Positions 22,335 through 38,930 of a stretch of DNA of 63,692 nt are shown here, in pieces (position 1 is the first letter of the stretch; each line of letters begins with the position of its first letter). Under the pieces are notes generated by a model. The model was not told the origin of the DNA. It did not search any database and was given only the letters and a program-made list of their open reading frames with translations. Origin of the DNA: Actinomycetota bacterium (GTDB lineage Bacteria; Actinomycetota; Acidimicrobiia; Acidimicrobiales; Ilumatobacteraceae); NCBI GenBank assembly GCA_016871395.1, contig VFYV01000010.1:1-63692 (forward strand). Direction: 5' to 3'. The position numbers were made by a program, and so were the translations under genes.

Positions 22335-22921
22335 CGCAGAAAAACGAAGCCGTCGTCGGTGGCAATGTGAGCGAGATCCCACGGTTCGCGAAGGGCGAGC
22401 GGACCGGCCGCGATGCGCTGACTGGCTCCACTTACGAAGCGGGGTGCGATGGTCAGGCAGATCTCGTCCACCAGATCGGCGGTCAGCATCTGGGCGTTGA
22501 GACTCGGGCCTCCCTCGAGCACACACAGACGCCCCGGCAAGTCGAGAACGATGTCACGTACGTCGCCGCCCACGATGCGTGTGTTGCCCGCGACCGTGAG
22601 TGCTGTGGCGTTTCGCCCGAGGTCGCCGGTTTTGGAGACCACTACCAGCACCTGGTGGGCGGCGAGAGGGGTGTACACGTCTTGTCGAACCGTCTCGGCG
22701 CCAACGAGCACACTGTCGGCCGAGCGATGAAGATGGAGGAAGACCTCCCGATCGGTGGGGCCCCCGAGAAGTGACGAGTTCCCCTCGAGCGACACGGCTC
22801 CGTCGGCGGTACTGATCATGGACATGACGACCCACGGGCGGTCCTCACGGCGAGGGCGGTCGGTCAGGTCGTAGGCGACGTCGACGGACACATCGTCGAC
22901 ACGGGGATGGATCAAACGCAC
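22307..22921 (-). CDS. RibD C-terminal (pyrimidine reductase)-like protein
   Basis: This 204-residue protein has the dihydrofolate-reductase-like fold of the RibD reductase domain. WVVMSMISTADGAVSLEGNSSLLGGPTDREVF contains the substrate-binding segment, then SADSVLVGAETVRQD, VLEGGPSLNAQML with the NADPH-contact Gly-Gly, and VDEICLTIAPRFVSG. It could reduce a 5-amino-6-ribosylamino-pyrimidine in riboflavin/F420 precursor synthesis or an unrelated substrate; no deaminase domain is attached. The GTG start has TAGACA 6 nt upstream. Its end overlaps gpgS tail-to-tail. Confidence 0.85.
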   Translation of the reverse strand: MRLIHPRVDDVSVDVAYDLTDRPRREDRPWVVMSMISTADGAVSLEGNSSLLGGPTDREVFLHLHRSADSVLVGAETVRQDVYTPLAAHQVLVVVSKTGDLGRNATALTVAGNTRIVGGDVRDIVLDLPGRLCVLEGGPSLNAQMLTADLVDEICLTIAPRFVSGASQRIAAGPLALREPWDLAHIATDDGFVFLRYLRASSGN

Positions 22922-22927
22922 GAACCG

Positions 22928-22933
22928 TGTCTA
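22928..22933 (-). promoter_or_regulatory. -10 element of the RibD-like gene
   Basis: TAGACA on the minus strand ends 6 nt before GTG 22921. Confidence 0.4.
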
Positions 22934-23060
22934 GCGGGACGGAGGCGGCCGAACCGCTCAGCCCCGGAATTGACGCAAGACTGACAACTTGGCGGTCCCT
23001 GCTCCTCCCCCCGGGACCTCACAGGTCACAAGATTTCGCTCACATTTCGCCCGCTCGGTT

Positions 23061-23077
23061 TCTGAGAAGTCGTCAGA
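23061..23077. promoter_or_regulatory. Operator site 1 (TCTGACR-N3-YGTCAGA family)
   Basis: TCTGAGA-AGT-CGTCAGA is 17 bp with one half-site mismatch from the consensus of sites at 31778, 36384 and 38858. It ends 20 bp before the acyl-CoA dehydrogenase start and covers the -35 position relative to the -10 at 23086, as expected of a repressor site. Confidence 0.6.
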
Positions 23078-23085
23078 TGGTGGAG

Positions 23086-23091
23086 TAGGAT
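23086..23091 (+). promoter_or_regulatory. -10 element of the acyl-CoA dehydrogenase gene
   Basis: TAGGAT ends 6 nt before ATG 23098, a leaderless layout. Operator site 1 occupies the -35 region. Confidence 0.5.
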
Positions 23092-23097
23092 CGGCCC

Positions 23098-24282
23098 ATG
23101 TTCCTCGCCGAAACACCCGACCAGCAGGCTTTGCGCAAAGAGCTTCGCGAGTATTTCGCGGCCATGCTCACCCCCGAGGTACGCGCCGAGTTGGGCGAGT
23201 CGGGTGAGGGTAAGCCGTTGTTCCGCGACTTGGTGCGCCGTATGGGTGCCGACGGTTGGCTGGGCCTCGCATGGCCCAAGGAGTTCGGCGGTCAGGGCCG
23301 GCCGGCCACCGATCAATTCATCATGTTCGACGAGATCCAGCGTGCGCACGCGCCGTTCCCTTTCGTCACCGTGAACACCGTCGGACCAGCGATCATGGCG
23401 CACGGCACCCAGGCCCAAAAGGATCGATACCTCACCGGCATCTTGAAAGGTGAGATCAACTTCGCGATCGGATACACCGAGCCCGAGGCGGGAACCGATC
23501 TGGCCAGTTTGCGCACCACTGCCGAATTGGACGGTGATGAATGGGTCATCAACGGCAACAAGGTCTATACGTCGGGGGCCAATCAGAGCGACTACGTCTG
23601 GTTGGCCTGTCGTACCGACGCCGACGCCCCGAAGCATCAGGGAATCAGCATCATCATCGTCCCCACCAACACCAAGGGTTTCGAGTGGACCCCGATCGTC
23701 ACCGTCGGCGGCGTGGTCACCACGGCTACGTACTACACCGATGTGCGGGTACCCAAGGAGAATGTGATCGGACCGATCAACGGTGGCTGGAAGCTCATCA
23801 CCATGCAACTCAATCATGAGCGCGTGGGTTTGGCCGCCTTGTCCGGATTGACCGAGCGCTTGCTGGACGACGTCACGACGTGGTGTCGGGTGACTCCGTC
23901 GGGTGCCGCCGGGGGAGAAAAGATGATCGACGTGGCCTGGGTCCAGCAAGATCTGGCCAAGTGCCACGCCCTGCTCGACGCCATTCGGCTCATGACGTGG
24001 AAGTTGGCCCAGAGTGTGGCCGACAACACGCTCGGAGCGGCCGAAGCGAGCGGTGTGAAGGTGTTCGGCACCGAGCGCGCCGTCGAGGTGTATCGCATCA
24101 TGCAAGGCATTCTCGGTCCGATGTCGCACCTGCGCGATGGCTCCGATGGGGCCGTCATCCACGGCGAGGTCGAGCGCGCCGCTCGCGCCGCTCAGATCAA
24201 CACCTTCGGTGGTGGTGTGAACGAGATCCAGCGCGAGTTGGTGGCCACTGCCGGCTTGGGTTTGGTTCGCTCGACGCGCTGA
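23098..24282 (+). CDS. Acyl-CoA dehydrogenase (FadE)
   Basis: In this 394-residue flavoenzyme residues about 1-125 form the helical N-terminal domain, and GYTEPEAGTDLASLRTTAELDG is the FAD/substrate-binding middle-domain signature. The C-terminal domain ends in GGGVNEIQRELVATAGLGL, matching mycobacterial FadE proteins. It introduces the alpha-beta double bond into an acyl-CoA. It is convergent with the fadA5-cyp125-ltp2 operon, with a 1-bp gap to fadA5, and shares the operator motif with that operon. This suggests a substrate from the same pathway, possibly a steroid side-chain or ring-derived CoA ester, though that is inference. Confidence 0.9.
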   Translation: MFLAETPDQQALRKELREYFAAMLTPEVRAELGESGEGKPLFRDLVRRMGADGWLGLAWPKEFGGQGRPATDQFIMFDEIQRAHAPFPFVTVNTVGPAIMAHGTQAQKDRYLTGILKGEINFAIGYTEPEAGTDLASLRTTAELDGDEWVINGNKVYTSGANQSDYVWLACRTDADAPKHQGISIIIVPTNTKGFEWTPIVTVGGVVTTATYYTDVRVPKENVIGPINGGWKLITMQLNHERVGLAALSGLTERLLDDVTTWCRVTPSGAAGGEKMIDVAWVQQDLAKCHALLDAIRLMTWKLAQSVADNTLGAAEASGVKVFGTERAVEVYRIMQGILGPMSHLRDGSDGAVIHGEVERAARAAQINTFGGGVNEIQRELVATAGLGLVRSTR

Positions 24283-24283
24283 G

Positions 24284-26732
<2,449 letters not shown>

Positions 26733-26736
<4 letters not shown>

Positions 26737-27926
26737 CGATCTACCCCCAGAATCAGCCCACTCGTGGGCACACCCGTCCCCGCAGAGACGAGGACGTTGA
26801 CGACATTATCCACCTGATTGACGCTCGTTCCCCGGATCTGACGCACCGCCTCGGCGATGCCATTCATTCCGTGGATGTAGGCCTCGCCCAACTGACCGCC
26901 GTGGGTGTTGATCGGAAGACGACCGCCGATCTCGAGTGCTCCGTCGGCGATGTAGTCCTTGGCCTCGCCGCGACCGCAAAAGCCGAACTCTTCCAACTGC
27001 ATGAGCACGTAGGGTGTGAAGTGGTCGTACAGAATCGCGGTCTGAATGTCGGCCGGGGTCAGACCCGACGAGGTCCAGAGTTCGTCGGCGACGACTTTCA
27101 TCTCGGGTAGCTGAGCGATGTCGTCGCGGAAGAACGAGGTCATGGTCCACTGCTCGTCCCCGGCGCCCTGGGCGCCGGCGACGATGAGCGCGGGCGTGTT
27201 GGGCAGATCGCGGGCACGCTCGGCGCTGACCACCACCAGGGCTTGTCCGCCGTCGCTTTCTTGGCAGCAGTCGAGCAGGTGCAACGGATCCACGATCCAA
27301 CGACTGGCCTGATGCTCCTCGAGTGTGATGGGCTCGTTGTAGAACCAGGCCGCCGGGTTGTTGGCGGCGTGCTTGCGTCCGGCTACCGCGACCCGCCCGA
27401 AGTCTTGCGAGGTGGCACCGTAGAGGTGCATGTAGCGGCGCGCGACCATGGCCACCCACGACGCGGGTGTCAACAGTCCGGAGGGAGTGGTCCACGAGAA
27501 CTGCGCGCGCTCGGCGGTGGCCGCGATCGGGATGTCTTGCACGCCCGCACCGAAACGCCGACCACTGCGTTCGTTGAATGCGCGGTAGCACACCACCGCG
27601 TCGGCGACGCCGGTGGCCACGGCCATGGCGGCCTGGACGATGGTTCCGCAGGCCGCACCGCCGCCATAGTGCACTCGGCTGAAATGGCGTAGCGCCCCGA
27701 TGCCCACGTGTCGGGCGATCTCCACGTCGGGATTGTTGTCCGCGCTGTAGGTGACCATGCCGTCGATGTCGCACGGCTTCAGGCCGGCGTCGGCGATGGC
27801 GGCGGCCACGGCCTCGCTGGCGAGACTCATCTCGCTGCGTCCGGAGTCCTTGGAGAACTCGGTGGCGCCGATGCCGGTGATGGCGGCCCTGCCACCGAGT
27901 TGGTTACCGCGGCGATTGATGCTCAC
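26733..27926 (-). CDS. ltp2: Ltp2-like steroid side-chain retro-aldolase (thiolase-fold lipid-transfer protein)
   Basis: This 397-residue thiolase-superfamily protein lacks the normal nucleophile-Cys motif, as in SCP-x/Ltp proteins. Recognisable segments are AAITGIGATEFSKDSGRSE, VHYGGGAACGTIVQAAMAV, the catalytic-type Tyr/His region AILYDHFTPYVLMQLEEFGFCGRGE and LPINTHGGQLGEAYIHGMNGI. Ltp2 (Rv3540c) together with the DUF35 domain of ChsH2 cleaves the 17-hydroxy steroid-CoA to androstenedione-type product and propionyl-CoA. It overlaps chsH1 and cyp125 by 4 nt each, and the partner ChsH2 is encoded in the same operon. Confidence 0.87.
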
Positions 27927-28348
27927 GGCAACACCACCTCGACCGTGGCGTTCATGTGGTCACCGAGGGAGTTCGTGCCCTTCACGGCCACGGTGACGGT
28001 GCGGGTGTCGTCGTCTTTGGCTGTGATCGAACCGGTGACGACCATCGTGTCACCGGGGTAGTTGGGGGCGCCCAAACGGATTTTCACCGACGAGATGAAA
28101 CTGTTCGGGCCCGCCCAATCGGTGATGTAGCGACCGACGAAGGCGTTGGAGGTGAGGATGTTCATGATGATGTCCTTCGAACCGCGTTCGGCGGCGATGG
28201 ACGGATCATGGTGGACCACCTGGTAGTCGCGAGTGGCGATGGCGGTGCTGACGATGAGGGTGCGCGTGAGTGGCAACTCGAATGGAGCGATTTCATCGCC
28301 CACGCTCACGCTGGCAAAGGTGCGGGTGTCGGGAAGCGTCGAAGTCAT
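27923..28348 (-). CDS. chsH1: MaoC-like hydratase subunit (ChsH1-like)
   Basis: This 141-residue hot-dog-fold protein carries the hydratase-2 signature region RDYQVVHHDPSIAAERGSKDIIMN with the likely catalytic Asp and His, followed by SNAFVGRYITDWAG and VKIRLGAPNYPGDTMVVTGSI. In M. tuberculosis ChsH1 pairs with the MaoC domain of ChsH2 to hydrate the steroid 17,20-enoyl-CoA. ATG 28348 was chosen from the family N-terminus; the longer frame reaches into the neighbouring chsE1 gene. It is 14 bp after chsE1 and overlaps ltp2 by 4 nt. Confidence 0.87.
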   Translation of the reverse strand: MTSTLPDTRTFASVSVGDEIAPFELPLTRTLIVSTAIATRDYQVVHHDPSIAAERGSKDIIMNILTSNAFVGRYITDWAGPNSFISSVKIRLGAPNYPGDTMVVTGSITAKDDDTRTVTVAVKGTNSLGDHMNATVEVVLP

Positions 28349-28362
28349 GGTTTCATCGTCAC

Positions 28363-29478
28363 TCAGGTACGGGCGATGAGATTGCCGAGTCGGGACAGAT
28401 GGGCGCTGGCCGAGCCGAGGACGCTGGCCAACTGGATTCCCCACAAAAAGTAGCGGTGAACGGGGTATTCGACGTCGGCGCCGATTCCACCGTGAAGGTG
28501 TTGAGCGGCGGTGACCACTTGTTGCGCTCCCTCGCTGGCCCAATAGGCGGCCACGGCCACGTCGCGTCGCGCGTCGAAACCCTCGCTCAATCGCCACGCG
28601 GCGTTGAGGGCGGTCACGCGCATGGCCTCGGCGGTGATGTAACCGTCAGCGGCGCGCTGCGTGGTGGCTTGAAAAGCCGACAACGGCTTGCCGAATTGGG
28701 TGCGTCCCGACAGGTGGGTTGCGGTGAGAGCCAACGATCCCTCGGCTACCCCCACTTGAAGGGCGGCCAACCCGACCAGGGAATGTTCGTACAGTGAGCG
28801 CAGCGCCTCGCGACCGTCGATGCCGACGCCGTGTCCGAGGATGGCCTCCACGGGAATGTCGATGTCGAGTTCGAGGTGGGCCTGCGGTTCGTGATTGGTG
28901 GTGGCTACTGGCGTGAGCGCGACACCGGTGGTCGAGCGGAGATCGACGAGGGCGATCTGCGCCGAGCCGTCGAGGTCGATGGGGACGAGGCCCAGCGAGG
29001 CGTGCTGAGCGAAGGGCACAGCGGGCTTGAAGCCCTCGATGTGCACACGACCACCCGAGGTGGAGCCGACGACGGTGGGTCGCATCACGTCGTTCACACC
29101 TTGCTCGGCCAAAGCGATGGACGCCACGGTCTCTCCACTGGCGATGCCCGGCAGGTACGTGGCCTGTTGGGTCGGGCTTCCAAAATCCGTCAGAGCCAAC
29201 GCGGTGACACCGCTCAGCCACAGCGGCACCGGTGCCACGTTGCGCCCTTGTCCCACGAGGGCCAACGCCAATTCGACCGCGCCGAAACCGCTGCCGCCGA
29301 ACTCCTCGGGCACGCACAGCGCCTGAATGCCACTGTTGGCCAGTTGCTGCCACAAGTCGCGGTCGAAACCGCCGGACTTCTCGACTTCCTTCACGCGCTC
29401 GACAGTGGCCTGCTCGGTGAAGATCTGCAGAGCGAGGTCCCTGATGACCAACTGCTCCTCGGAGAGGTCGAAGTTCAC
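28363..29478 (-). CDS. chsE1: Acyl-CoA dehydrogenase subunit (ChsE1/FadE28-like)
   Basis: This 371-residue protein has the acyl-CoA dehydrogenase fold (MNFDLSEEQLVIRDLALQ; CVPEEFGGSGFGAVELALAL; GVAEGSLALTATHLSGRTQFGKPLSAFQ) but is shorter and more divergent than its operon partner. The C-terminus reads QHLHGGIGADVEYPVHRYFLW and lacks the GG-NEIQ segment. This is the pattern of the alpha subunit of M. tuberculosis ChsE1-ChsE2, an alpha2beta2 enzyme that dehydrogenates the three-carbon steroid side-chain CoA ester. It overlaps chsH2 by 4 nt. The pairing with the 30512-31729 product is inferred from this gene order. Confidence 0.85.
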   Translation of the reverse strand: MNFDLSEEQLVIRDLALQIFTEQATVERVKEVEKSGGFDRDLWQQLANSGIQALCVPEEFGGSGFGAVELALALVGQGRNVAPVPLWLSGVTALALTDFGSPTQQATYLPGIASGETVASIALAEQGVNDVMRPTVVGSTSGGRVHIEGFKPAVPFAQHASLGLVPIDLDGSAQIALVDLRSTTGVALTPVATTNHEPQAHLELDIDIPVEAILGHGVGIDGREALRSLYEHSLVGLAALQVGVAEGSLALTATHLSGRTQFGKPLSAFQATTQRAADGYITAEAMRVTALNAAWRLSEGFDARRDVAVAAYWASEGAQQVVTAAQHLHGGIGADVEYPVHRYFLWGIQLASVLGSASAHLSRLGNLIART

Positions 29479-30515
29479 GATGTTGCTCCAATCGGGTCGA
29501 TGACGGCGAAGGGAAGTTTCATGTCGGGGTCGGTGGCACGGATCTCGATTCGCACTCGGGCGCCCACGGCGAGTGCCGACTCGGCAGAGTCGGCGGTGTT
29601 CATGATCATGCGCACCCGGTCGTTACCGAGTTTGCCGATGTGCGAGGTGCTGGGGTCCATGTCGACCAACACGATGGGCAGGGGATAATCGAAGCCGGGC
29701 ACTTGGGGATAGTGGGCCACGACGAAACTGTGAATCGTCCCCGACAGGGGCAGCTCCACCTTGTCGTACGAACGCGAGTGGCACGACGGGCACATCGGCC
29801 CGGTCGGGAAGCGGACGCGTCCGCAGTTGGCGCACGCCTGGGCGCACAAGCGACCTTCGCCCAGTTCGTCGAACCACCACTGGTTGTCGTACGTGGTGGC
29901 CGGACGCGGACGCCGAGGTTGGGGCTTCGCCGGTGGCACTTTGGCCGCCGGTTTGAAGCGGAATATACGAAAAAGCATCGACCCGACCAGTTGGTCGTCG
30001 GCGTCGAAGTAGTCCTGGCGGGTACTCACGAAATGACCGGTGCCCAGACCCGTGGTCTTCTCGTCGCTGATGCTGTCGATCACGGTGCGCATGGTCAGGT
30101 GATCGCCGGGTCGCAGATAACGCTTGTAGGACTGTTCGCTGTTCGTCCCCAGCACGCTGGTGAAGCCCCGTGAGAAGAGTAGTTGGTTCATCTTCTCGTA
30201 CGGTCCGTTGCCTCCACGCGCCGGACCGTCGATGCCCCGCATCACCCACGCCTGCAACATGGTTGGCGGGGCGACGATTCCGCCGTGGATGCTGTCAGCG
30301 GCGAGTTCGGGATTCGTGTAGATCGGGTTGCGATCGCCCACGGCTTCGACCAGATGACGGATCATGGGGGCGTTCACCTCGTCGGGTCCCGGCGTCGGTT
30401 CGCCAACCTCGAGTCCGACGTACGTCTGCAACTCGGCGTAGAACGCGGCCTTGGCCTCGGGGGTGGAGTCGACGATGATCGAGGGGCTGGTATTCGTCAT
30501 GACGTCGTCGCTCAT
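29475..30515 (-). CDS. chsH2: MaoC domain plus DUF35 zinc-ribbon/OB protein (ChsH2-like)
   Basis: In this 346-residue protein residues about 15-190 form a MaoC-type hot-dog domain (IRHLVEAVGDRNPIYTNPE; VAPPTMLQAWVMRGID). Residues about 215-346 are a DUF35 domain with a four-Cys zinc ribbon (CANCGRVRFPTGPMCPSC) and an OB fold (GTIHSFVVAHYPQVPGF). This exact fusion is Rv3542c/ChsH2, whose MaoC half works with ChsH1 and whose DUF35 half with Ltp2; both partners are in this operon. ATG 30515 forms a 4-nt ATGA overlap with the upstream stop; ATG 30500 is an alternative. Confidence 0.9.
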   Translation of the reverse strand: MSDDVMTNTSPSIIVDSTPEAKAAFYAELQTYVGLEVGEPTPGPDEVNAPMIRHLVEAVGDRNPIYTNPELAADSIHGGIVAPPTMLQAWVMRGIDGPARGGNGPYEKMNQLLFSRGFTSVLGTNSEQSYKRYLRPGDHLTMRTVIDSISDEKTTGLGTGHFVSTRQDYFDADDQLVGSMLFRIFRFKPAAKVPPAKPQPRRPRPATTYDNQWWFDELGEGRLCAQACANCGRVRFPTGPMCPSCHSRSYDKVELPLSGTIHSFVVAHYPQVPGFDYPLPIVLVDMDPSTSHIGKLGNDRVRMIMNTADSAESALAVGARVRIEIRATDPDMKLPFAVIDPIGATS

Positions 30516-31729
30516 CCGACCCGATTGAGGGACCGCCACGGAAGGTTCTTGTCGGGCGTGGGTTCGCGCGGTAGACCGAGACCGCGCTCGGCGATGATGT
30601 TGTGCTGGATCTCGTCGGTACCACCACCGATGCGGATGGCGAATTGGCTCAACAGGTGATGACCCCACTGATTGTCTTCGATGGCGTCATCACCCCACAA
30701 CATGGCGTCAGCACCCAAGATGCCGATGGCCGTTTCGGCGCTGAGTCGCCAATGATTCGCGAAAGCCAACTTCAGCGCGAGTATCTCCGGCCCGGGCATG
30801 CGCTTTTGGCTCATCGCGGTGCGCATCCGGAAGCCGAGGTACTTCAACGTTTCTTGGCGGCTCACGGCTTCGGCCAACCGTTGACGCACGTGTGGGTCAG
30901 CGGCGCAACCACGACGCTGAGCCAGATCCACGAGGTCAGTCGCGCTCCAGGAGCCACCCGATCCGATGAAGTTGCGCTCGTTGGCCAAGGTGGTTTGGGC
31001 GACCTTCCAACCCTCGTTCGCCCCGCCCACGACGTTGGAGTCGGGAATGCGCACGTCGGTGAGGAAGGTCTCGTTGAAGTGCTGGACGCCGGTGATCTGG
31101 GTGATGGGACGGACCTCGATACCGGGGGACTTCATGTCCAAGATGAAGTAGGTGATGCCGGCGTGCTTGGGCCGGTCGCCGTCGGTGCGGGCCAACAAGA
31201 TGGCGTAGTCGGCGTACTGGCCCAGGCTGGTCCAGACCTTCTGGCCGTTGACCACCCAGTCGTCACCGTCGCGCACGGCCCGGGTACCGAGCGAGGCGAG
31301 GTCGCTGCCCGAGCCGGGCTCGCTGAACAACTGGCACCAGACCTCCTCACCCTTCAGAATCGGGGCCAGGTGCTTTTGCTGTTGCTCGGGCGAGCCATGG
31401 GCGATGAGGGTGGGACCCACCATCCCGATGCTCACCGCGAACGTGCCCACTGCGACATCGAACTGCGCCATCTCCTCGTTGAAGATGGCGGCCTGTATGG
31501 CACTGGCCCCCTTCCCGCCGAATTGCTCGGGCCACGTGATGCCGGCCCACCCATGATCGAACAACACGCTCTGCCAGTCACGACACGCCTGCACGTGTCC
31601 GGCCAGGTCGCGTGAATGATCGACGCTGTCGGCGCGATGGGTGTCGCACTTGCGGGGGGCGTGGGCTTCCAACCACGCGCGGGCCTGGGCGCGATAATCG
31701 GCTTCTTCTCGTGTGTCACCGATGTGCAT
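30512..31729 (-). CDS. chsE2: Acyl-CoA dehydrogenase subunit (ChsE2/FadE29-like)
   Basis: This 405-residue protein has complete acyl-CoA dehydrogenase motifs: GITWPEQFGGKGAS, FSEPGSGSDLASLGTRAV, GQKVWTSLGQYADYAILLART and the C-terminal GGGTDEIQHNIIAERGLGLPREP. It resembles FadE29/ChsE2, the FAD-binding partner of ChsE1. It is the first gene of the leftward seven-gene steroid side-chain operon, and the 17-bp operator at 31778 lies about 50 bp before its ATG. The following chsH2 overlaps by 4 nt. It could in principle act alone on another acyl-CoA, but the operon argues for the heteromeric enzyme. Confidence 0.88.
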   Translation of the reverse strand: MHIGDTREEADYRAQARAWLEAHAPRKCDTHRADSVDHSRDLAGHVQACRDWQSVLFDHGWAGITWPEQFGGKGASAIQAAIFNEEMAQFDVAVGTFAVSIGMVGPTLIAHGSPEQQQKHLAPILKGEEVWCQLFSEPGSGSDLASLGTRAVRDGDDWVVNGQKVWTSLGQYADYAILLARTDGDRPKHAGITYFILDMKSPGIEVRPITQITGVQHFNETFLTDVRIPDSNVVGGANEGWKVAQTTLANERNFIGSGGSWSATDLVDLAQRRGCAADPHVRQRLAEAVSRQETLKYLGFRMRTAMSQKRMPGPEILALKLAFANHWRLSAETAIGILGADAMLWGDDAIEDNQWGHHLLSQFAIRIGGGTDEIQHNIIAERGLGLPREPTPDKNLPWRSLNRVG

Positions 31730-31777
31730 GGATCTCGTGGTTCCCGAAATGAGCGCGACGCGGGAGGTTCCGCGACA

Positions 31778-31794
31778 TCTGACAGTCTGTCAGA
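31778..31794. promoter_or_regulatory. Operator site 2, perfect 17-bp palindrome before the side-chain operon
   Basis: TCTGACAGTCTGTCAGA is a perfect inverted repeat around a central T. It lies between the SDR stop (31812) and the chsE2 start (31729). Size and symmetry suit a TetR-family dimer. Confidence 0.75.
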
Positions 31795-31811
31795 AACCCG
31801 CCGGACCCCAC

Positions 31812-32723
31812 CTAGCCGGGGAAGGCGGCATCACCGGTGTAGAAACCCAGATCGTCGCGACTGTGGCGCATCCACGCCGCGCCGGCGGAGTCGGTGACCT
31901 CGTCCCAGTGGGCCAGTAGCCCCTCGGCGTCGGTGGTGGGTCCGCCGTTCCAACCCGGAGTGGTGATGGAACCGATCAATGCCGTTCGTCCGGCCCCGGT
32001 GGGGAAGAAGTCGCCCGAGGCTGGGGCGCACTCGTGCAACAACACCACGGCGGCCGCAGTGCAGAGATGCGCGGGGAAGTGCTGCTCCATCCAGGCCCGC
32101 GTGTCCGGGTTGGGATTCAGGGCGGCCGCCCGGGTGTAACCGATGGGCATCAACGCGTTCACCTTGATGTCGTGGTCGGCACCCTCGATGGCCAACGACC
32201 GGGTGAGACCGAGCAATCCGGACTTGGCCATGCTGTAGGCGGCCATACCGCTGTTGCCGATGGCCGCACTCGAGGCGGTGTTGAGGATGCGGCCGTACCT
32301 CTGGGCCTGCATCACGGGCCAGGCGGCATGACACACCAGATAGGTGCCCATCAAGTGCGTTCGCACGATGGTCTCCATGGTGTCGAGGGACGAACTCTCG
32401 AATGGTCCGGTCGGGCCGCCGCGTCCGGCGTTGTTGAGCACCACGTGCAATCCACCAAAAGTGTCGAGGGACGTGCCAACGATCGCTGCGGCTCCTTCGG
32501 GGGTGGCCACCGTGTTGGTGTCGGCCACGGCCACACCTCCGCGGGCCGTGATCTCGTTGGTGGTGGCACGAGCGCGCTCGGCGCTCACGTCGTTGACCAC
32601 CACGCTCGCTCCTCGGGCAGCCAAAGCCAAGGCGTGTTCGCGACCGAGTCCGCGCCCGGCACCGGTGACGATGGCGATTCGGCCGTCGAAACGCAGTTCG
32701 TCTCCGGAGCGGGCGGTGTTCAT
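31812..32723 (-). CDS. Short-chain dehydrogenase/reductase (peroxisomal-multifunctional-enzyme type)
   Basis: This 303-residue SDR has the NAD(P)-binding motif IVTGAGRGLGREHALALA (GxxxGxG), LNNAGRGG, the catalytic Ser in NTASSAA and the Y-x3-K in AAYSMAKSG. The GAGRGLGREHAL start is typical of 17beta-HSD4-like (3R)-hydroxyacyl-CoA dehydrogenases, so beta-oxidation of a branched or steroid acyl-CoA is plausible. ATG 32723 was chosen because TACGGT lies 6 nt upstream. It lies upstream of the igr-like operon on the same strand, but an operator intervenes. Confidence 0.87.
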   Translation of the reverse strand: MNTARSGDELRFDGRIAIVTGAGRGLGREHALALAARGASVVVNDVSAERARATTNEITARGGVAVADTNTVATPEGAAAIVGTSLDTFGGLHVVLNNAGRGGPTGPFESSSLDTMETIVRTHLMGTYLVCHAAWPVMQAQRYGRILNTASSAAIGNSGMAAYSMAKSGLLGLTRSLAIEGADHDIKVNALMPIGYTRAAALNPNPDTRAWMEQHFPAHLCTAAAVVLLHECAPASGDFFPTGAGRTALIGSITTPGWNGGPTTDAEGLLAHWDEVTDSAGAAWMRHSRDDLGFYTGDAAFPG

Positions 32724-32729
32724 AGTGCC

Positions 32730-32735
32730 ACCGTA
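32730..32735 (-). promoter_or_regulatory. -10 element of the minus-strand SDR gene
   Basis: TACGGT on the minus strand ends 6 nt before ATG 32723, a leaderless layout. It is back-to-back with the -10 at 32762. Confidence 0.45.
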
Positions 32736-32761
32736 CCGCTCGATCTCCGACGGGTCGCACG

Positions 32762-32767
32762 TACAGT
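32762..32767 (+). promoter_or_regulatory. -10 element of the plus-strand SDR gene
   Basis: TACAGT ends 6 nt before GTG 32774, a leaderless layout. Confidence 0.45.
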
Positions 32768-32773
32768 GGGGTC

Positions 32774-33613
32774 GTGACGCAACCACGAGTTGTCATGGTG
32801 ACTGGTGCCAGTCGGGGCATCGGTCGGGCCACCGCGTTGGTCTTGGCCGCGCGGGGACATCACCTCGTGCTCACCGCTCGATCGGTGTCGGGGGGCGCGC
32901 GATTCGACGGGACGACGAGGGACGATCCGTTGGCCGGAGTCGCTCTGCCGGGCTCCGTGGAGGAGGTGGCCGACGAATGTCGGGCAGTCGCCGGGCGCGT
33001 CGGCTCTGCTGCGAGATTCGTGTGCGTGGCCATGGATCTGGCCGCGGAGGAGTCGGTGCGAGCGGCGGCCCACGTGGCATTGAGTGAGTTCGAGTCGGTG
33101 GACTGTGTGGTGTCCAATGCGATCTACCAGGGACCGGGCGTGAACGACCGATTCCGTGACGTCCCCATGCAGTTGTTGCGCACCGTGATAGAGAGTGACG
33201 CCGTGGCTCCGTTGATTCTGTTGCAGGAGTTCCTCCCGGGCATGATCGCCAGCGAGCGGGGGGTCTTCGTGCATCTCACCTCGGGGGCCGCGACGCTCGT
33301 GCCGCGCGCTCCAGCTGGTGAGGGAGGCTGGGGACTTGCCTACGCCATGGCCAAGGGAGCAGCGCACCGAATTGCCGGTGTGTTGCACGTCGAACACGCG
33401 CACCACGGTATGCGCGCCTACAGCCTGAACCCCGGACACGTGACCACCGAGGTGATGCGACTGCGCGCCGAGAGTGAAGGCCGACCGGTGACCGGCGGAA
33501 GTCCCGACGAGGTGGCCCGGGTGATCGATTGGCTGATCGAGGGTGGTCCTGATGCAGTGACCTTGTCGGGTCGTGAGGTCGTCGCGCGCGAGGTCATCGA
33601 ACGCTGGGGGTGA
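32774..33613 (+). CDS. Short-chain dehydrogenase/reductase
   Basis: This 279-residue SDR has VVMVTGASRGIGRATALVLAARG for the cofactor site, a Ser in VHLTSGAATLV, and the Y-x3-K in LAYAMAKGAAHRIAG. NAI replaces the usual NAG. The segment between strands beta2 and beta3 is long and Arg/Asp-rich. The substrate is unknown. It is divergent from another SDR with only 50 bp between starts, and its 3' end overlaps the lipase-like gene tail-to-tail by 20 bp. None of the four operators controls it directly. Confidence 0.85.
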   Translation: MTQPRVVMVTGASRGIGRATALVLAARGHHLVLTARSVSGGARFDGTTRDDPLAGVALPGSVEEVADECRAVAGRVGSAARFVCVAMDLAAEESVRAAAHVALSEFESVDCVVSNAIYQGPGVNDRFRDVPMQLLRTVIESDAVAPLILLQEFLPGMIASERGVFVHLTSGAATLVPRAPAGEGGWGLAYAMAKGAAHRIAGVLHVEHAHHGMRAYSLNPGHVTTEVMRLRAESEGRPVTGGSPDEVARVIDWLIEGGPDAVTLSGREVVAREVIERWG

Positions 33614-34574
33614 GACATCGGCGTAAAAATTCGCTCACGGTCGGTGTGATGACGTTCTCGTTCGGCTCGCCCAGCACCCGGTTGACTTCCTCGTGGGAGT
33701 AGTCCCCGGCGAAAAGCACGCTGGCATCCCCACCGGCCGCCACGACCAGATCAGCGAATTCGACGGCCCGATGTTGTGCCGACCCCCGGGTGATGATGAG
33801 GTATCGCGTGGCGGGGGCACCCTCGCGTTCGACGCGCACCGACGGGGACGCGTCGGCCAGAACCTCGGGATCGGTGCCGAACGCGTTGTCCACGGCGATC
33901 GGATACGAGGTGGCGCGATCAGCAAGTCGATAACCCACGGTGTCGTTGGCGATCACGCAGTCGAGTGTCGTGTCCGCCAAGCCCCGAGCCGACATGTACG
34001 AACGGTCCGCCGACAAGATGGCCACCGTGTGACCACCGGCGGAGTGACCGAGCAACGAGATGCGTTCGGCATCGAGCAACAAGGTGTCGGCGTTGCCGAC
34101 GATGTGTGCGACCGCATCGGCGACGTCGTTCGGATAATCGGGCCAGAAGCCTTTGCCGAATTTGTTCGCCAATCGGTAATTGGTACTTGCCAACGCGTAG
34201 CCGAGCGAGAATGCGTACGAGGCGCGGTCGAGGGCCTCGGGGTTGGCCTTGTCACCGCCGACCCAAGCACCTCCGTGCACCCACACGAGTACCGGAAAAG
34301 GACCGCATCCGGCGGGGAGATACAGATCGAAACTGGTGAAGCGGTCACCGACACCGGGATAGGTGGCGTAAACGTGGTTGGTGATCGTGGGTTCGAGATG
34401 GTTGCACGGCACCGTGGTGGTGGTCGTGCTGGTGCTCGTCGAGGTGCTCGTGCTGCTGGTGGTGCTCGAGGTCATGAATGACGTGGACGCGCTGCCGGCC
34501 ACGATCTCGTCCCGGCCCCCCGACGAACCGCAACCCGTCAACAGCGCCAGGACGGCAACCACGATGCGTCTCAT
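33594..34574 (-). CDS. Secreted alpha/beta-hydrolase lipoprotein (hormone-sensitive-lipase/BD-FAE type)
   Basis: This 326-residue protein starts with a lipoprotein signal peptide (MRRIVVAVLALLTGC, lipobox LLTG-C) and a Ser/Thr-only linker of about 25 residues. The hydrolase domain has the oxyanion motif VWVHGGAWVGGDK and the nucleophile elbow LLGHSAGGHTVA; a late Asp and a His in FAGDYSHEEV complete a plausible triad. It should sit on the outer face of the membrane and cleave esters, which would fit supply of fatty acids or sterols from esters. ATG 34574 overlaps the LLM stop by 4 nt, so it is the last gene of the operon starting at 36383. Confidence 0.87.
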   Translation of the reverse strand: MRRIVVAVLALLTGCGSSGGRDEIVAGSASTSFMTSSTTSSTSTSTSTSTTTTTVPCNHLEPTITNHVYATYPGVGDRFTSFDLYLPAGCGPFPVLVWVHGGAWVGGDKANPEALDRASYAFSLGYALASTNYRLANKFGKGFWPDYPNDVADAVAHIVGNADTLLLDAERISLLGHSAGGHTVAILSADRSYMSARGLADTTLDCVIANDTVGYRLADRATSYPIAVDNAFGTDPEVLADASPSVRVEREGAPATRYLIITRGSAQHRAVEFADLVVAAGGDASVLFAGDYSHEEVNRVLGEPNENVITPTVSEFLRRCLTPSVR

Positions 34575-35608
34575 GACGACGAAGAGTTCCGCAAGTCCGC
34601 GATGGCCGCACCCAGCAGGGTGTCGTGCGTGGGGTCCGGCGGGGGAGCGACGAGGATGCCGTCGGCGAGCCCCGCGAACCACTCACGAGCCACCCGTGGG
34701 AGTTCGTCGTAGGTGGCTTGAGGAACGAGGGTGTCGAGCACCTCGTCGGTGACGAGAGCGGACAAGTCGGACCAACGATCATCCCGAATGAGGGACCGCA
34801 GACGACCGGCAAGATCGGACCATCCGAACAACTCGAGCGTTCGCTCGTAAGCCGGAGTGCTGTACAGGAACGCGAGAAGTCGCCGGTTGTGCTCGCGACG
34901 CTCTAAGAGTTCCGACGCCGAGGACCCCAGAATCCACTGCGTTCCAACGACCAGTTCGATCTCGCGTGGATTGCGTCCGGCCTCGCGGGCGCTGGCGTCC
35001 AAACCGGGACGACACAGCTCGCGCAGATAACGCGGGTGACTGTTGGTCGGATGGGTGACGAAGCCGTCGGCGATGCGTCCGGCGGCGCTCACGAGACGCT
35101 TGTTCACTCCACCCATCCAGATGTTCGGTCGTACCACGTCGGGGGCAAGCGGGTCGGGCGTGAAGTTGGGAGTGAGCAGGTCCAAGTCGTAGTGGGTGCT
35201 GTGATAATCGAGTTTCTCGAGGCCGTCGAAGGCTCTCCAGCACGCGCGCACCGCCCCGATGTGATCACTCAATCGGCCCACCGGATCATCGAACGGGGCT
35301 CCGAAACGTCGCTCGATGTGAGGTCGGATCTGCGTGCCCAGGCCCAACTGGAAACGACCGTGCGACAACGACGCCAGATCCCAGGCGCTGTAGGCGACGG
35401 CCATGGGGCTGCGCACGAGCGCCAACGCGACGCTCGTTCGCACCACCAACGACTCGGTGGCCTGCAGAGCCGCCATCGACGCGAGGAACGGATCGTGAAT
35501 CGTCTCGGCGATGTGCAATCCGTCGTAGCCGAGGCTTTCGATCCGTCGGGCATGCGCGGCAATGCCGCTGATCGGCAAGCGAGGATCCATGCCGGCGTAG
35601 ACGCGCAT
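34571..35608 (-). CDS. Luciferase-like monooxygenase (LLM) family, probable F420-dependent oxidoreductase
   Basis: This 345-residue TIM-barrel protein has MRVYAGMDPRLPISGIAAHARRIESLGYDGLHIAE at the start, SLSHGRFQLGLGTQ as the cofactor-phosphate region, and APDVVRPNIWMGGVNKRLVSAAGRIADGFVTHP, all typical of actinobacterial LLM proteins. These mostly use F420H2; a flavin is possible. The substrate is unknown. It follows the enoyl-CoA hydratase after 1 nt and overlaps the lipase-like gene by 4 nt. CofC for F420 synthesis is encoded at 56 kb in the same window. Confidence 0.85.
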   Translation of the reverse strand: MRVYAGMDPRLPISGIAAHARRIESLGYDGLHIAETIHDPFLASMAALQATESLVVRTSVALALVRSPMAVAYSAWDLASLSHGRFQLGLGTQIRPHIERRFGAPFDDPVGRLSDHIGAVRACWRAFDGLEKLDYHSTHYDLDLLTPNFTPDPLAPDVVRPNIWMGGVNKRLVSAAGRIADGFVTHPTNSHPRYLRELCRPGLDASAREAGRNPREIELVVGTQWILGSSASELLERREHNRRLLAFLYSTPAYERTLELFGWSDLAGRLRSLIRDDRWSDLSALVTDEVLDTLVPQATYDELPRVAREWFAGLADGILVAPPPDPTHDTLLGAAIADLRNSSSS

Positions 35609-35609
35609 G

Positions 35610-36383
35610 TCAGATCCGTTCCGACCGTTCGGCCGCGCGCTGGGCGGCCCACTCCCGGGCCCGACGATTCTCCACGGCGAAGGCCTCGTCACCTTCACCC
35701 AACGTCGCGACTTCACGGTACAGATTTCGGATGGCGGAGACGGCGGGACCGTTGTTGCCCGCGATGGTGGTGGCGATCTGCAGGGTGCGTTCGAGCAGTC
35801 GATCGTGCTCGACAATTTCGGTGACGAGTCCCCATTCGAGTGCTCGATGCGCGTCGATGAACTCCGACGTGCTGGACATGCGTCGGGCGCGACCCGGGCC
35901 GATCAACGCAGGAAGCAGTACGGTCAGGCCCCAACCGGGGATCATGCCCACCTTGGCGTGGGTGTCGGCGAAGCGGGCCCGATCCGAGGCGACGAGGAAG
36001 TCACAGGCCAGAGCGATCTCGAGACCTCCGGTGACCGCCGCACCGTTGATGGCACCGATGACGGGCACGCGAGTGGGAGGAAGGGCACCCCAATAACCGG
36101 GATGCGGATTGGTCCCCTTCTTCTTTCCCGATCCGACGTCGCCAAGATCGAATCCGGCGCAAAAAGCGGGATCGGCACCGGTGAGCACGATGGCGCGCGT
36201 CGATGGATCACCGTCGGCTTGGCGGATACGTAGCGGCAATTGTTCGGCCAGATCGGGGGAGATCGCATTGCGCGCCCCGGGACGGTTCAATGTGACGATC
36301 GCGATGCGCGCGGTGTCGTCGATCTCGTGCCAGGCCAAGGCGACCGCATCGAAGTTCGGCTCGTCCGCTCCTTTTGGCTCCAC
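35610..36383 (-). CDS. Enoyl-CoA hydratase/isomerase family protein
   Basis: This 257-residue crotonase-fold protein has IVTLNRPGARNAISPDL, the oxyanion segment GADPAFCAGFDLGDVG and IGAINGAAVTGGLEIALACDFLVASD. The loop GSGKKKGTNPHPGYWGALPPTRVPV is a Lys-rich insertion not usual in the family. The GTG start 36383 is supported by CACTAT 6 nt upstream, which lies inside operator site 3. It is the first gene of the leftward hydratase-LLM-lipase operon. The shared operator suggests a role in the same catabolic program as the steroid side-chain operon. Confidence 0.87.
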   Translation of the reverse strand: MEPKGADEPNFDAVALAWHEIDDTARIAIVTLNRPGARNAISPDLAEQLPLRIRQADGDPSTRAIVLTGADPAFCAGFDLGDVGSGKKKGTNPHPGYWGALPPTRVPVIGAINGAAVTGGLEIALACDFLVASDRARFADTHAKVGMIPGWGLTVLLPALIGPGRARRMSSTSEFIDAHRALEWGLVTEIVEHDRLLERTLQIATTIAGNNGPAVSAIRNLYREVATLGEGDEAFAVENRRAREWAAQRAAERSERI

Positions 36384-36400
36384 TCTGGCATAGTGTCAGA
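36384..36400. promoter_or_regulatory. Operator site 3 between divergent hydratase and LLM genes
   Basis: TCTGGCA-TAG-TGTCAGA has one mismatch in its left half. It directly abuts the GTG start at 36383 and contains the -10 of that leaderless gene (CACTAT, 36390-36395). It also contains TAGTGT (36391-36396), a possible -10 for the rightward LLM gene, so one bound protein could shut both. Confidence 0.65.
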
Positions 36401-36414
36401 AAGGGAGGAATGCG

Positions 36415-37314
36415 GTGAAGTTCTGGTGTGCGACGGCGTTCATGAAGACCAAACAGTTGGTGCACATCGCCCAATTGCTCGACGAGGCTGGCTATCACGG
36501 ATTGATGGTCAGCGATCACCTCGTGTACCCGAAGAATCTTCGATCGAAGTATCCCTACTCACCCCACCCTGATGGTCGACCCATCTGGGACCCCGAGACG
36601 GCGTGGCCCGATCCGTGGGTGTTGATCGGCGCGATGACCAGCGTCACCAAGCAGTTGAACTTCACCACCAACATCTACGTGGCGGGACATCGACCCGTGT
36701 TGCAGTTGGCCAAGGAGATCGCCACCGCCTCGGTGCTGTCCGACGGACGCGTGGCGTTGGGCGCCGGAGCCGGATGGATGAAGGAGGAATTCGACCTGCA
36801 GGGACAGGACTTCTCCAACCGCGGCAAGCGCTTGACCGAGATGATCCAAGTCTTGCGAGCCATGTGGGAGGGCGGATGGGTCGAGTTCCACGGTGAGTAC
36901 TACGACATCCCGCCGGTGACGATGGAACCGCACCCACCGAAGAAGGTGCCCATTTACGTCGGTGGCCACACCGATGCGGCGCTGAAGCGCGCCGCCAAGG
37001 TAGGCGACGGTTGGATCGGCAACGCCTATCCACTGGAGGAGGCCGAGATGCACATCAAGAAACTGAAGGGATACTTGCGCGAGTACGGACGTGAGAATGA
37101 CGATTTCGAGATCATCTGCGGCTTGTATGCGATGCCGACCGCCGATCTGTACAAGCGCGCCGAAGAAGAGATGGGTCTCACGGGCACGCTGTGCATGCCG
37201 TGGGCCCTCGGTAACCCGTCGGCCGGCGATCACGCCGGATTGACCGAGATGTCGGCGGCCTACAAGCCCTTCATCGACGACTTTGCCGCGAACGTCGTGG
37301 CGAAGTGCCAATGA
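36415..37314 (+). CDS. LLM-family F420-dependent oxidoreductase
   Basis: This 299-residue TIM-barrel protein of the LLM family (TIGR03619-like) has HIAQLLDEAGYHGLMVSDHLVYP near the start, NFTTNIYVAGHRPVLQLAKEIATASVLSDGRVALGAGAGWMKEEFDLQG in the middle and PPKKVPIYVGGHTDAALKRAAKVGDGWIGN late. F420 use is expected from the family; the substrate is unknown. GTG 36415 has a strong AAGGGAGG Shine-Dalgarno at 36401-36408, so unlike its divergent neighbour it has a short leader. It is controlled by operator site 3. Confidence 0.88.
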   Translation: MKFWCATAFMKTKQLVHIAQLLDEAGYHGLMVSDHLVYPKNLRSKYPYSPHPDGRPIWDPETAWPDPWVLIGAMTSVTKQLNFTTNIYVAGHRPVLQLAKEIATASVLSDGRVALGAGAGWMKEEFDLQGQDFSNRGKRLTEMIQVLRAMWEGGWVEFHGEYYDIPPVTMEPHPPKKVPIYVGGHTDAALKRAAKVGDGWIGNAYPLEEAEMHIKKLKGYLREYGRENDDFEIICGLYAMPTADLYKRAEEEMGLTGTLCMPWALGNPSAGDHAGLTEMSAAYKPFIDDFAANVVAKCQ

Positions 37315-37341
37315 TTCGTGACGGCGGCGCCGGCGATCTCG

Positions 37342-38820
37342 TCAGCCCGGCCAAACGACGGACTGCATCTCCGTGTAGCAATGCAGTCCGAAGTCACCAC
37401 CGTCACGACCCACCCCGCTCATCTTGAAGCCTCCGAAGGGCGCCTCGTGATTGCGCTGGGCGGTGTTGATCCCCACATTGCCGCTTCGGAGTCGACGAGC
37501 GATGCGGTACGCACGGTCACTGTCCTGCGAAAAGACGTAGTCGTACAGACCGAATTCGGTGCCATTGGCGATCGCGATTCCCTCGTCCTCGTCGTCGAAG
37601 GGGACGACGACCACGACCGGTCCGAAGATCTCCTGTTGAACGGGAGTCATGTCGGCACGGCAACCGGTGATGAGAGTCGGACCGACGTAAAAGCCGCGTT
37701 CCATGTGGGAGGGACGACGACCGTCGACCACCACGTCGGCGCCCTCGTCGGCACCGGCTTTGATGTAACCCTCGATGCGGTCTCGCTGGATCGACGAGAT
37801 GACTGGTCCGACGAGAGTGTCCATCGAAGTGGGATCGCCCACTCGGAGATTCGGCGCGACCTTGGCGAGCGCGGCCACCAACTCGTCGTGGCGACTGCGG
37901 TGCACGATGGCGCGGGTGGGGGCCGTACAGATCTGACCGCTGTGAAAGGCCCAAACGCTCTGGATACCGGCCACGGCCTTGGCGATATCGGCGTCGTCCA
38001 TCACCAGTCCGGCACCCTTGCCACCCAGTTCGAGTAATTGACGCTTCATGGTGGCCGCACCGGCTTCCATGATGCGTACGCCCACGCTGGTGGAACCGGT
38101 GAAGGACACCATGTCGACATGGGGACTGGTGGTGAGTGCCGCGGCCGGCGCCGGCTTGGACGAAGTGATGATGTTGATGACCCCCGGTGGGAAGCCCACC
38201 TCGTGCATGATCTCGGCCAACTCGATCACCGCCAAGGGATCTTGGGGGGCCGGCTTCATGACGACGGTGCAACCGACCGCGAGGGCGGGAGCGATCTTTC
38301 CGGCCATATTCACCACGGGGAAGTTGTACGGCGAGATGCAGGCGACGACGCCCACGGGCTGTCGGTGAACTACGCCACCGATGAGGCCTCCGGCGGCGAG
38401 TGGCGTGGCCTGCGTCGGCGATGGCGGCAACGCGATGTCGATGCTTCGCGTGGCGGACCGGGCGTAACGCTCGAATCGTTCGATGGCCACGGGAACCTGC
38501 ATACGCGAGCCGACCATGGCGGTGGCTCCGGTTTCGCTGATGATGAGAGGAACCAGGTCGCCTTGGCGTTCGCGCAACTTGTCGGCGACTGCCTGCAACA
38601 AACGGGCCCGCTCGGCGGGCGGGGTGCGCCACCATTTGGGAAAGGCTTCCTGGGCGGCGCGGGCGGCGGCTTCGGCTTGGGCCTCACTGGCCTCGGGTGC
38701 ATGGCCGACCACTTCCTCAGTGGCCGGATTGATGATGGGGGTCGTGCCTTCGTCTCCATCGACCCAATCTCCGCCAATGAGAAGTCGGTACCTCTTGTCC
38801 ACTGTGCCCGATGAACCCAT
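37342..38820 (-). CDS. NAD(P)-dependent aldehyde dehydrogenase
   Basis: This 492-residue enzyme has the cofactor segment GVVACISPYNFPVVNMAGKIAPALA, Rossmann motif FTGSTSVG, the general-base Glu in LLELGGKGAGLV (about 263) and the nucleophile Cys in HSGQICTAPTR (about 297). The C-terminal GFKMSGVGRDGGDFGLHCYTE is typical of medium-chain or betaine-type ALDHs. It oxidises an aldehyde to the acid; the substrate is unknown. GGAGGG precedes ATG 38820. Operator site 4 lies 38 bp upstream, placing it in the same regulon as the steroid operon. Confidence 0.9.
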   Translation of the reverse strand: MGSSGTVDKRYRLLIGGDWVDGDEGTTPIINPATEEVVGHAPEASEAQAEAAARAAQEAFPKWWRTPPAERARLLQAVADKLRERQGDLVPLIISETGATAMVGSRMQVPVAIERFERYARSATRSIDIALPPSPTQATPLAAGGLIGGVVHRQPVGVVACISPYNFPVVNMAGKIAPALAVGCTVVMKPAPQDPLAVIELAEIMHEVGFPPGVINIITSSKPAPAAALTTSPHVDMVSFTGSTSVGVRIMEAGAATMKRQLLELGGKGAGLVMDDADIAKAVAGIQSVWAFHSGQICTAPTRAIVHRSRHDELVAALAKVAPNLRVGDPTSMDTLVGPVISSIQRDRIEGYIKAGADEGADVVVDGRRPSHMERGFYVGPTLITGCRADMTPVQQEIFGPVVVVVPFDDEDEGIAIANGTEFGLYDYVFSQDSDRAYRIARRLRSGNVGINTAQRNHEAPFGGFKMSGVGRDGGDFGLHCYTEMQSVVWPG

Positions 38821-38857
38821 GTTTCCCTCCGTGGTGACGACCAGGGGGAAGGTTACA

Positions 38858-38874
38858 ATCTGACGGACCGTCAG
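38858..38874. promoter_or_regulatory. Operator site 4, perfect palindrome between ALDH and amidohydrolase genes
   Basis: TCTGACG-GAC-CGTCAGA is perfect and extends two more symmetric bases on each side (38856-38876). It overlaps TACAAT (38853-38858, rightward -10) and sits over the spacer/-35 of the leftward TAACCT (38849-38854). It could control both divergent genes. Confidence 0.75.
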
Positions 38875-38930
38875 ATTCGATCGCGGTCGGAATACATTCG
38901 CGACGCCATTCAGCCCAAGGGGTTCAGAGC

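Follow-up and report, generated by a model that had tools for sequence, protein, structure and literature searches.

The window studied here, 63,692 nucleotides long, is contig VFYV01000010.1 of an Ilumatobacteraceae bacterium (assembly GCA_016871395.1), judging from its relatives a freshwater actinobacterium, and is designated C10 within a 1.95-Mb genome of 43 contigs that is 87% complete. A block of catabolic genes in this window carries four near-identical 17-bp palindromes close to predicted gene starts, which raises the question of whether these palindromes are the operators of a regulon and, if so, which protein reads them. We found the same motif elsewhere in the genome and in front of the same genes in relatives, together with a family of TetR proteins that co-occurs with the motif and is linked to it. 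The regulon is real and its candidate regulator is well supported. Our reading, to which we assign a probability of about 0.85, is that WTCTGACRNNNYGTCAGAW is the operator of a single TetR-family repressor, encoded outside the window at C12:52742-53377, that would bind there, repress catabolic operons and respond to an effector, as we infer.

Four copies of the palindrome TCTGACRNNNYGTCAGA with at most one mismatch are present in the window, against a mean of 0.06 and a maximum of 1 in 100 dinucleotide shuffles. An earlier sequence-only reading of this DNA had reported two exact copies and two with one mismatch, as we found; its positions 23061, 31778 and 36384 were correct, while the last site begins at 38859 and not at 38858. 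When up to three mismatches are allowed, the 12 matches in the window equal the chance expectation (12.35), so that only near-perfect sites are informative. The four copies were also said to lie near start codons, and their centers were indeed found 9 to 64 bp from gene starts (table), these starts being predictions of simple gene callers, which differ from one another. The same cannot be said of the claim that the sites overlap or abut recognizable promoter elements, since a scan of positions 22900-39100 with the sigma-70 consensus gave a single promoter-like match, at none of the four sites. An Rfam scan of the window at gathering thresholds returned no RNA family.

The motif extends beyond the catabolic block of the window. 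In the whole genome there are six exact sites and 11 with at most one mismatch, most of the latter immediately 5' of catabolic genes, and at up to two mismatches there are 26 sites versus seven for the reversed pattern. For ten of the 11 sites a predicted start is no more than 76 bp away, and for the remaining one it is 139 bp off, which is not the placement of a motif equally frequent inside coding sequence. Two of the 11 overlap a neighboring open reading frame (ORF) call. In a set of 66 exact sites, 11 were located within a called gene and had no alternative start in the vicinity, and for two of these (L117:4001 and L118:4001) a second gene caller gives starts 29-48 bp away.

Conservation of the motif in front of orthologous genes, another expectation of the sequence-only reading, was found in close relatives. 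Among 61 related genomes, including the one under study, the exact pattern was present in 32 and the reversed pattern in none; exact sites occur in 21 of the 24 members of the genus, with 4 to 13 copies each, and are patchy beyond it. Orthologues of the aldehyde dehydrogenase and of the first acyl-CoA dehydrogenase of the block were picked without regard to the site, from the best 30 loci per protein search, leaving out the loci with no useful upstream sequence (L183 for the former, L214 and L226 for the latter). An exact site precedes all 14 close orthologues of the aldehyde dehydrogenase (at least 86% identity) that have upstream DNA, and a site with at most one mismatch stands 28-30 bp from the start in 15 of the 16 close orthologues of the acyl-CoA dehydrogenase (at least 90%; the miss is in G014), our own gene being counted in both cases. 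As illustration, from contigs chosen for carrying sites, six relative contigs have an exact site 5' of the ChsE1-like gene, and relatives have one 23 or 44 bp from the start of the gene for the luciferase-like monooxygenase (LLM). A matrix of 130 distinct sites with at most one mismatch has strong half-sites and a nearly free center; in 91% of them the next position outward, which lies outside the query, is A or T. Within the genus, G001, G011 and G019 gave no match to the motif, the TetR protein or the two dehydrogenases at the thresholds used, and the whole pathway is apparently absent from these three genomes.

The candidate regulator is a 211-amino acid protein whose TetR helix-turn-helix domain (PF00440, C12:52811-52924) scores 37.2 bits against a cut-off of 24 bits. 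The AlphaFold2 prediction for an orthologue of 94% identity (pLDDT 93.4) shows the all-helical TetR fold with a C-terminal ligand/dimer domain, its best matches being TetR-family structures. The candidate stays below the cut-off of every NCBIfam model, and for eight other TetR proteins of the genome NCBIfam gave nothing at E up to 1e-20. The genome has 10 TetR matches in all, with none in the window and none with a site of at most two mismatches in the stretch of about 3 kb around each. A hidden Markov model built from nine of these proteins was run on the window and on the stretches around sites of this genome and eight relatives. It found five TetR ORFs in site-bearing stretches, that is, the one on C12 and those of G051, G031, G058 and G054 (38-50% identical to it), and the five form one family. 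On C12, the TetR gene is the last of a five-gene operon (gaps of 16, 13, 25 and 1 bp) that begins behind the site at C12:48181. In G051 a single gene stands between the site and the TetR gene that follows, and in G037 an exact site lies directly 5' of the TetR start. The TetR-type regulator guessed at by the sequence-only reading thus has a counterpart in a TetR family that accompanies the motif and presumably binds it, and a site directly 5' of the regulator's own gene is seen in G037 and, at no more than 150 bp from the aligned start, in five of 79 named loci, with the site-headed operon in the genome under study.

Named loci, that is, the best 80 of at least 593 homologues and partly from the same genomes as the co-occurrence samples described below, carry a site with at most one mismatch in 36 of 80 cases, against 0 of 80 for the reversed control. 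The closest of these homologues belong to metagenome-assembled genomes (MAGs) titled Ilumatobacteraceae, Acidimicrobiales and acIV; the family is also present in other Acidimicrobiia, in Streptomyces and in MAGs titled Deltaproteobacteria, Myxococcota and Gammaproteobacteria, and the 17-bp site, exact or with one mismatch, is found near related regulators in Acidimicrobiia, in Streptomyces and in the MAGs of these last three titles. A recurrent Streptomyces site, TCTGATGTACCGTCAGA, was seen near the TetR orthologue at seven loci (L343, L345, L347, L349, L362, L363 and L364), and in the three of them examined (L347, L363 and L345) an acyl-CoA dehydrogenase or thiolase gene adjoins it; no catabolic neighbors were seen in a Streptomyces plasmid record (H1). 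A homologue on a Sphingomonas plasmid has a two-mismatch site only, 82 bp upstream of its annotated start, on which we base no claim. Four records titled Bifidobacterium breve MAG (L291, L292, L319 and L321) hold genes 45-78% identical to the regulator, and these titles look mislabeled.

Motif and regulator are also linked by their distribution. In the 61 genomes, 29 have both, three the motif only (G021, G040 and G043), two the TetR only (G047 and G060) and 27 neither (p=9e-12); outside the genus the corresponding counts are 9/2/2/24 (p=2e-5). In a sample of 396 genomes of the phylum they are 23/6/4/363 (p=7e-28), or 16/5/1/214 when counted by genus (p=1e-19), and TetR was found in 19 of the 20 phylum genomes with at least two exact sites. 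Species are not independent in such counts, and counting by genus lessens the effect of kinship and does not remove it. The TetR cut-offs (E <1e-38 for the 61 genomes, <1e-50 for the 396) were chosen once the E-values were known; they fall in gaps between groups that run from 2.7e-40 to 1.9e-16 and from 1.4e-59 to 7.5e-29, respectively. A control TetR from the same genome, one of nine others, was not associated with the motif (24/8/20/9, p=0.78).

Several observations weigh against this reading. G040, which is 93% complete, has three exact sites (C124:8001, C182:4067 and C182:18432) and no TetR-family match, perhaps because its regulator has diverged; G043 (one exact site) and G021 (four sites, 60% complete) also lack the TetR. 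Conversely, G047 and G060 have the TetR and no exact site, G060 having a one-mismatch site at its aldehyde dehydrogenase gene. In the phylum sample, three of the four TetR-only genomes belong to g81, taken as Streptomyces, while five of the six motif-only genomes have a single site and G124 has two; there, only the best seven first-look candidates per genome were scored and therefore a TetR may have been missed. The reversed pattern appears once each in two of the 396 genomes (G237 and G263). Distant orthologues mostly lack the site, which was found in three of 15 for the aldehyde dehydrogenase and three of 12 for the acyl-CoA dehydrogenase. Since the three genus members devoid of motif and TetR are also devoid of these two dehydrogenases, co-occurrence within the genus partly reflects presence of the pathway. 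Additionally, 4.6 kb separate the TetR gene of the genome under study from the site that heads its operon, and none of the ten most similar named TetR loci has a site in the stretch examined.

Alternatively, the palindrome might be a true operator read by another regulator, with the TetR as a passenger of the same catabolic clusters. TetR and targets do travel together in the genus, as the three genomes showing none of them illustrate, and G040 keeps its sites without the TetR. Nevertheless, G057 has homologues of both dehydrogenases (59-64% identity) but neither TetR nor motif, the linkage of TetR and site reaches across distant families into MAGs titled as other phyla, several genomes have the site directly 5' of the TetR gene, and the control TetR, one of nine others and drawn from the TetR family alone, had no association. 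We thus consider a passenger role unlikely.

As to its mode of action, we propose that a dimer of the TetR protein would sit on each site, just 5' of the start codon, and block transcription of the catabolic operons. Besides the igr-type steroid side-chain operon, to which CYP125 belongs, it would control further acyl-CoA dehydrogenases, SDRs and F420-dependent LLM oxidoreductases, as well as the aldehyde dehydrogenase, a sulfatase, an MFS-ABC transporter, amidohydrolases and AMP-ligases. Release of the repressor would be brought about by a catabolic intermediate, most likely a CoA thioester, and this protein, being encoded by the last gene of a site-headed operon, may limit its own level. It is improbable that the TetR binds the site and activates, or works both ways: some sites are 60-70 bp from start codons, and nothing more direct favors activation, but many are placed 20-60 bp 5' of predicted starts, a distance at which the promoter or the start region would probably be covered by a bound dimer, and KstR and EdcR, which are functional analogues, are described as repressors.

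KstR controls igr-type genes in mycobacteria, and the presence of such genes in the operon behind the site at 31778 could point to a KstR regulon with a drifted operator. This we regard as very unlikely. The KstR motif TNNAACNNGTTNNA has no exact match in the window and nine at one mismatch, where 8.4 are expected, the operator form TnnAACnnGTTnnA was not found upstream of the window's targets, and the half-site TCTGAC has nothing in common with AAC..GTT; moreover, none of the five PDB sequences that match the TetR protein at E up to 0.001 is labeled KstR. Our results support instead what the sequence-only reading had guessed, an undescribed TetR-run regulon other than that of KstR, with a motif unlike the KstR one. 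Finally, chance or a repeat element can be practically dismissed as the origin of the four sites, for the chance-level count at three mismatches is outweighed by four near-perfect copies against 0.06 expected, by the empty reversed control in 61 genomes and by specified bases that are conserved while the central three vary.

Genes and sites are collected in the table. The run 31729-24284 is, judging from sequence matches, an igr-type steroid side-chain set. The igr operon comprises ChsE1-ChsE2, ChsH1-ChsH2, Ltp2 and CYP125, and counterparts of all of them appear together here; PDB 6ok1 is presumably Ltp2, and ChsE1 and ChsE2 are the names that we assume for the two acyl-CoA dehydrogenases of the operon.

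Table. Predicted genes and palindromic sites of the window, followed by the sites with at most one mismatch on other contigs of the same genome
Feature	Position	Strand	Remarks
Acyl-CoA dehydrogenase (predicted target)	23098-24282	+	Pfam Acyl-CoA_dh N, M, C
Thiolase, FadA5-like by place	24284-25471	-	Pfam Thiolase_N/C
Cytochrome P450, CYP125-like	25501-26736	-	Best PDB matches CYP125 (8vxi, 5dqn)
Ltp2-type steroid aldolase	26733-27926	-	PDB 6ok1, lipid-transfer protein, E 2.4e-184
MaoC-like hydratase, ChsH1-like by place only	27923-28597	-	Pfam MaoC_dehydratas
Acyl-CoA dehydrogenase, ChsE2-like	28363-29478	-	Best PDB match Tcur3481 (6wy8 chain A)
MaoC-like hydratase fused to ChsH2 zinc ribbon/OB domain	29475-30515	-	Pfam FAS1_DH_region, zf-ChsH2, OB_ChsH2_C
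Acyl-CoA dehydrogenase, ChsE1-like	30512-31729	-	Best PDB match Tcur3483 (6wy8 chain B)
Alpha/beta hydrolase	33594-34574	-	Close-packed run headed by hydratase 35610-36383
Luciferase-like protein	34571-35608	-	Same close-packed run
Enoyl-CoA hydratase	35610-36383	-	First gene of close-packed run
F420-dependent LLM oxidoreductase	36415-37314	+	TIGR03619
Aldehyde dehydrogenase (predicted target)	37342-38820	-	
Amidohydrolase family 3 protein (predicted target)	38931-40652	+	
Operator-like palindrome	23061-23077	.	TCTGAGAAGTCGTCAGA, 1 mismatch; center 29 bp upstream of acyl-CoA dehydrogenase start
Operator-like palindrome	31778-31794	.	TCTGACAGTCTGTCAGA, exact; center 57 bp upstream of ChsE1-like gene, head of igr-like operon
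Operator-like palindrome	36384-36400	.	TCTGGCATAGTGTCAGA, 1 mismatch; between divergent hydratase and LLM genes, center 9/23 bp from starts
Operator-like palindrome	38859-38875	.	TCTGACGGACCGTCAGA, exact; between divergent aldehyde dehydrogenase and amidohydrolase genes, center 47/64 bp from starts
Site	C3:6395		Beside MFS-ABC gene
Site	C3:86566		Between two divergent acyl-CoA dehydrogenases
Site	C6:36409		Beside SDR; overlaps 3' end of upstream ORF
Site	C12:38537		Beside acyl-CoA dehydrogenase
Site	C12:44520		At amidohydrolase with AMP-ligase, opposite LLM gene
Site	C12:48181		At alcohol dehydrogenase with AMP-ligase, opposite TauD gene
Site	C19:1566		Beside sulfatase, start 139 bp away; inside overlapping ORF call

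That steroid, F420, aldehyde and amidohydrolase genes share a control, as the sequence-only reading suggested, is supported by the sites and their conservation, which point to common regulation. Similar gene families follow the sites of other genomes. Of 74 predicted targets with a length of 300 bases or more, all but one near-duplicate were surveyed; among these 73, the most frequent families were acyl-CoA dehydrogenases (15), SDRs (eight), luciferase-like proteins (five), periplasmic binding proteins (four), Amidohydro_3 (four) and Amidohydro_2 proteins (three), CoA-transferases III (three) and proteins with a ChsH2 OB domain (three), these being raw counts for the targets alone. A protein with the histone-deacetylase fold (PF00850) is encoded immediately 3' of the SDR that follows a site on C6 of our genome (L017:3117-4196). 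At four loci, the sites come in pairs exactly 21 bp apart (L160:6604/6625, L154:11821/11842, L162:1012/1033 and L064:1501/1522), 5' of an orthologue of our MFS-ABC gene (74-89% identity); our own copy has one site only, and L162 has a weak third copy at 1054.

A wider proposal, which we hold only tentatively and consider somewhat less probable than its opposite, is that regulator and operator form a portable, cross-phylum module for the catabolism of steroids or steroid-like acyl-CoA compounds, a counterpart of KstR that would sense a steroid side-chain CoA thioester and whose tandem operators at the transporter gene would be phased by two DNA turns. If the regulon is as we read it, a group of Acidimicrobiia known here from MAGs, of the Ilumatobacteraceae type as judged by kinship of the regulator, gains a catabolic regulon together with a candidate for the protein that governs it, and an igr operon stands under a repressor other than KstR. 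Shared control would also link enzymes of unknown substrate, such as the LLM oxidoreductases, the amidohydrolases and the sulfatase, as well as the MFS-ABC transporter, and the site may be used as a marker for finding the rest of the pathway.

Among known systems, the nearest structure to the model of the TetR orthologue is that of EthR of Mycobacterium tuberculosis, with about 20% identity in this model-based comparison, FasR and FadR ranking lower. EthR is, by label, not among the PDB sequence matches at E up to 0.001, and its target and operator seem to differ from those found here. The best PDB sequence match is 3vuq (E 6.6e-06), which we take to be SbtR, a protein whose regulon is, to our knowledge, unrelated. 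SbtR of Thermus thermophilus is reported to have a 14-bp site, TGACTGGCCAGTCA, with TGAC/GTCA half-sites (PMC4948773); these half-sites are shared with our palindrome, whereas the SbtR operator has another spacing and no TCT flank.

Functional analogues come from steroid catabolism. EdcR of Caenibius tardaugens, considered because homologues of our TetR protein sit on sphingomonad plasmids, is described as a TetR repressor of an oestradiol catabolic cluster (PMC8700777). It shares with our candidate the tie between a TetR protein and steroid catabolism, and was set aside as a counterpart because its proposed operator there, TnnCnnTACnAnTnGTAnnGnnA, differs. KstR3 of Mycolicibacterium neoaurum resembles our candidate by description, as a TetR regulator in a steroid side-chain operon, and the sections of that paper available to us gave no operator sequence (PMC10398937). 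Among the matches listed in the open-licence PMC literature, to which the search was confined (regulon databases lay outside it), there was no description of the motif or the regulon, and the pair of regulator and operator is apparently new, although ordinary in kind. In its general plan it resembles KstR of mycobacteria, which is described as an autoregulated TetR repressor of cholesterol catabolism acting on scattered lipid-catabolic operons through a palindromic operator (PMC1995591). Autoregulation is suggested here at the sequence level only and the operators differ, TnnAACnnGTTnnA versus WTCTGACRNNNYGTCAGAW, while a TetR-family protein, scattered lipid-catabolic operons and a palindromic operator are common to both.

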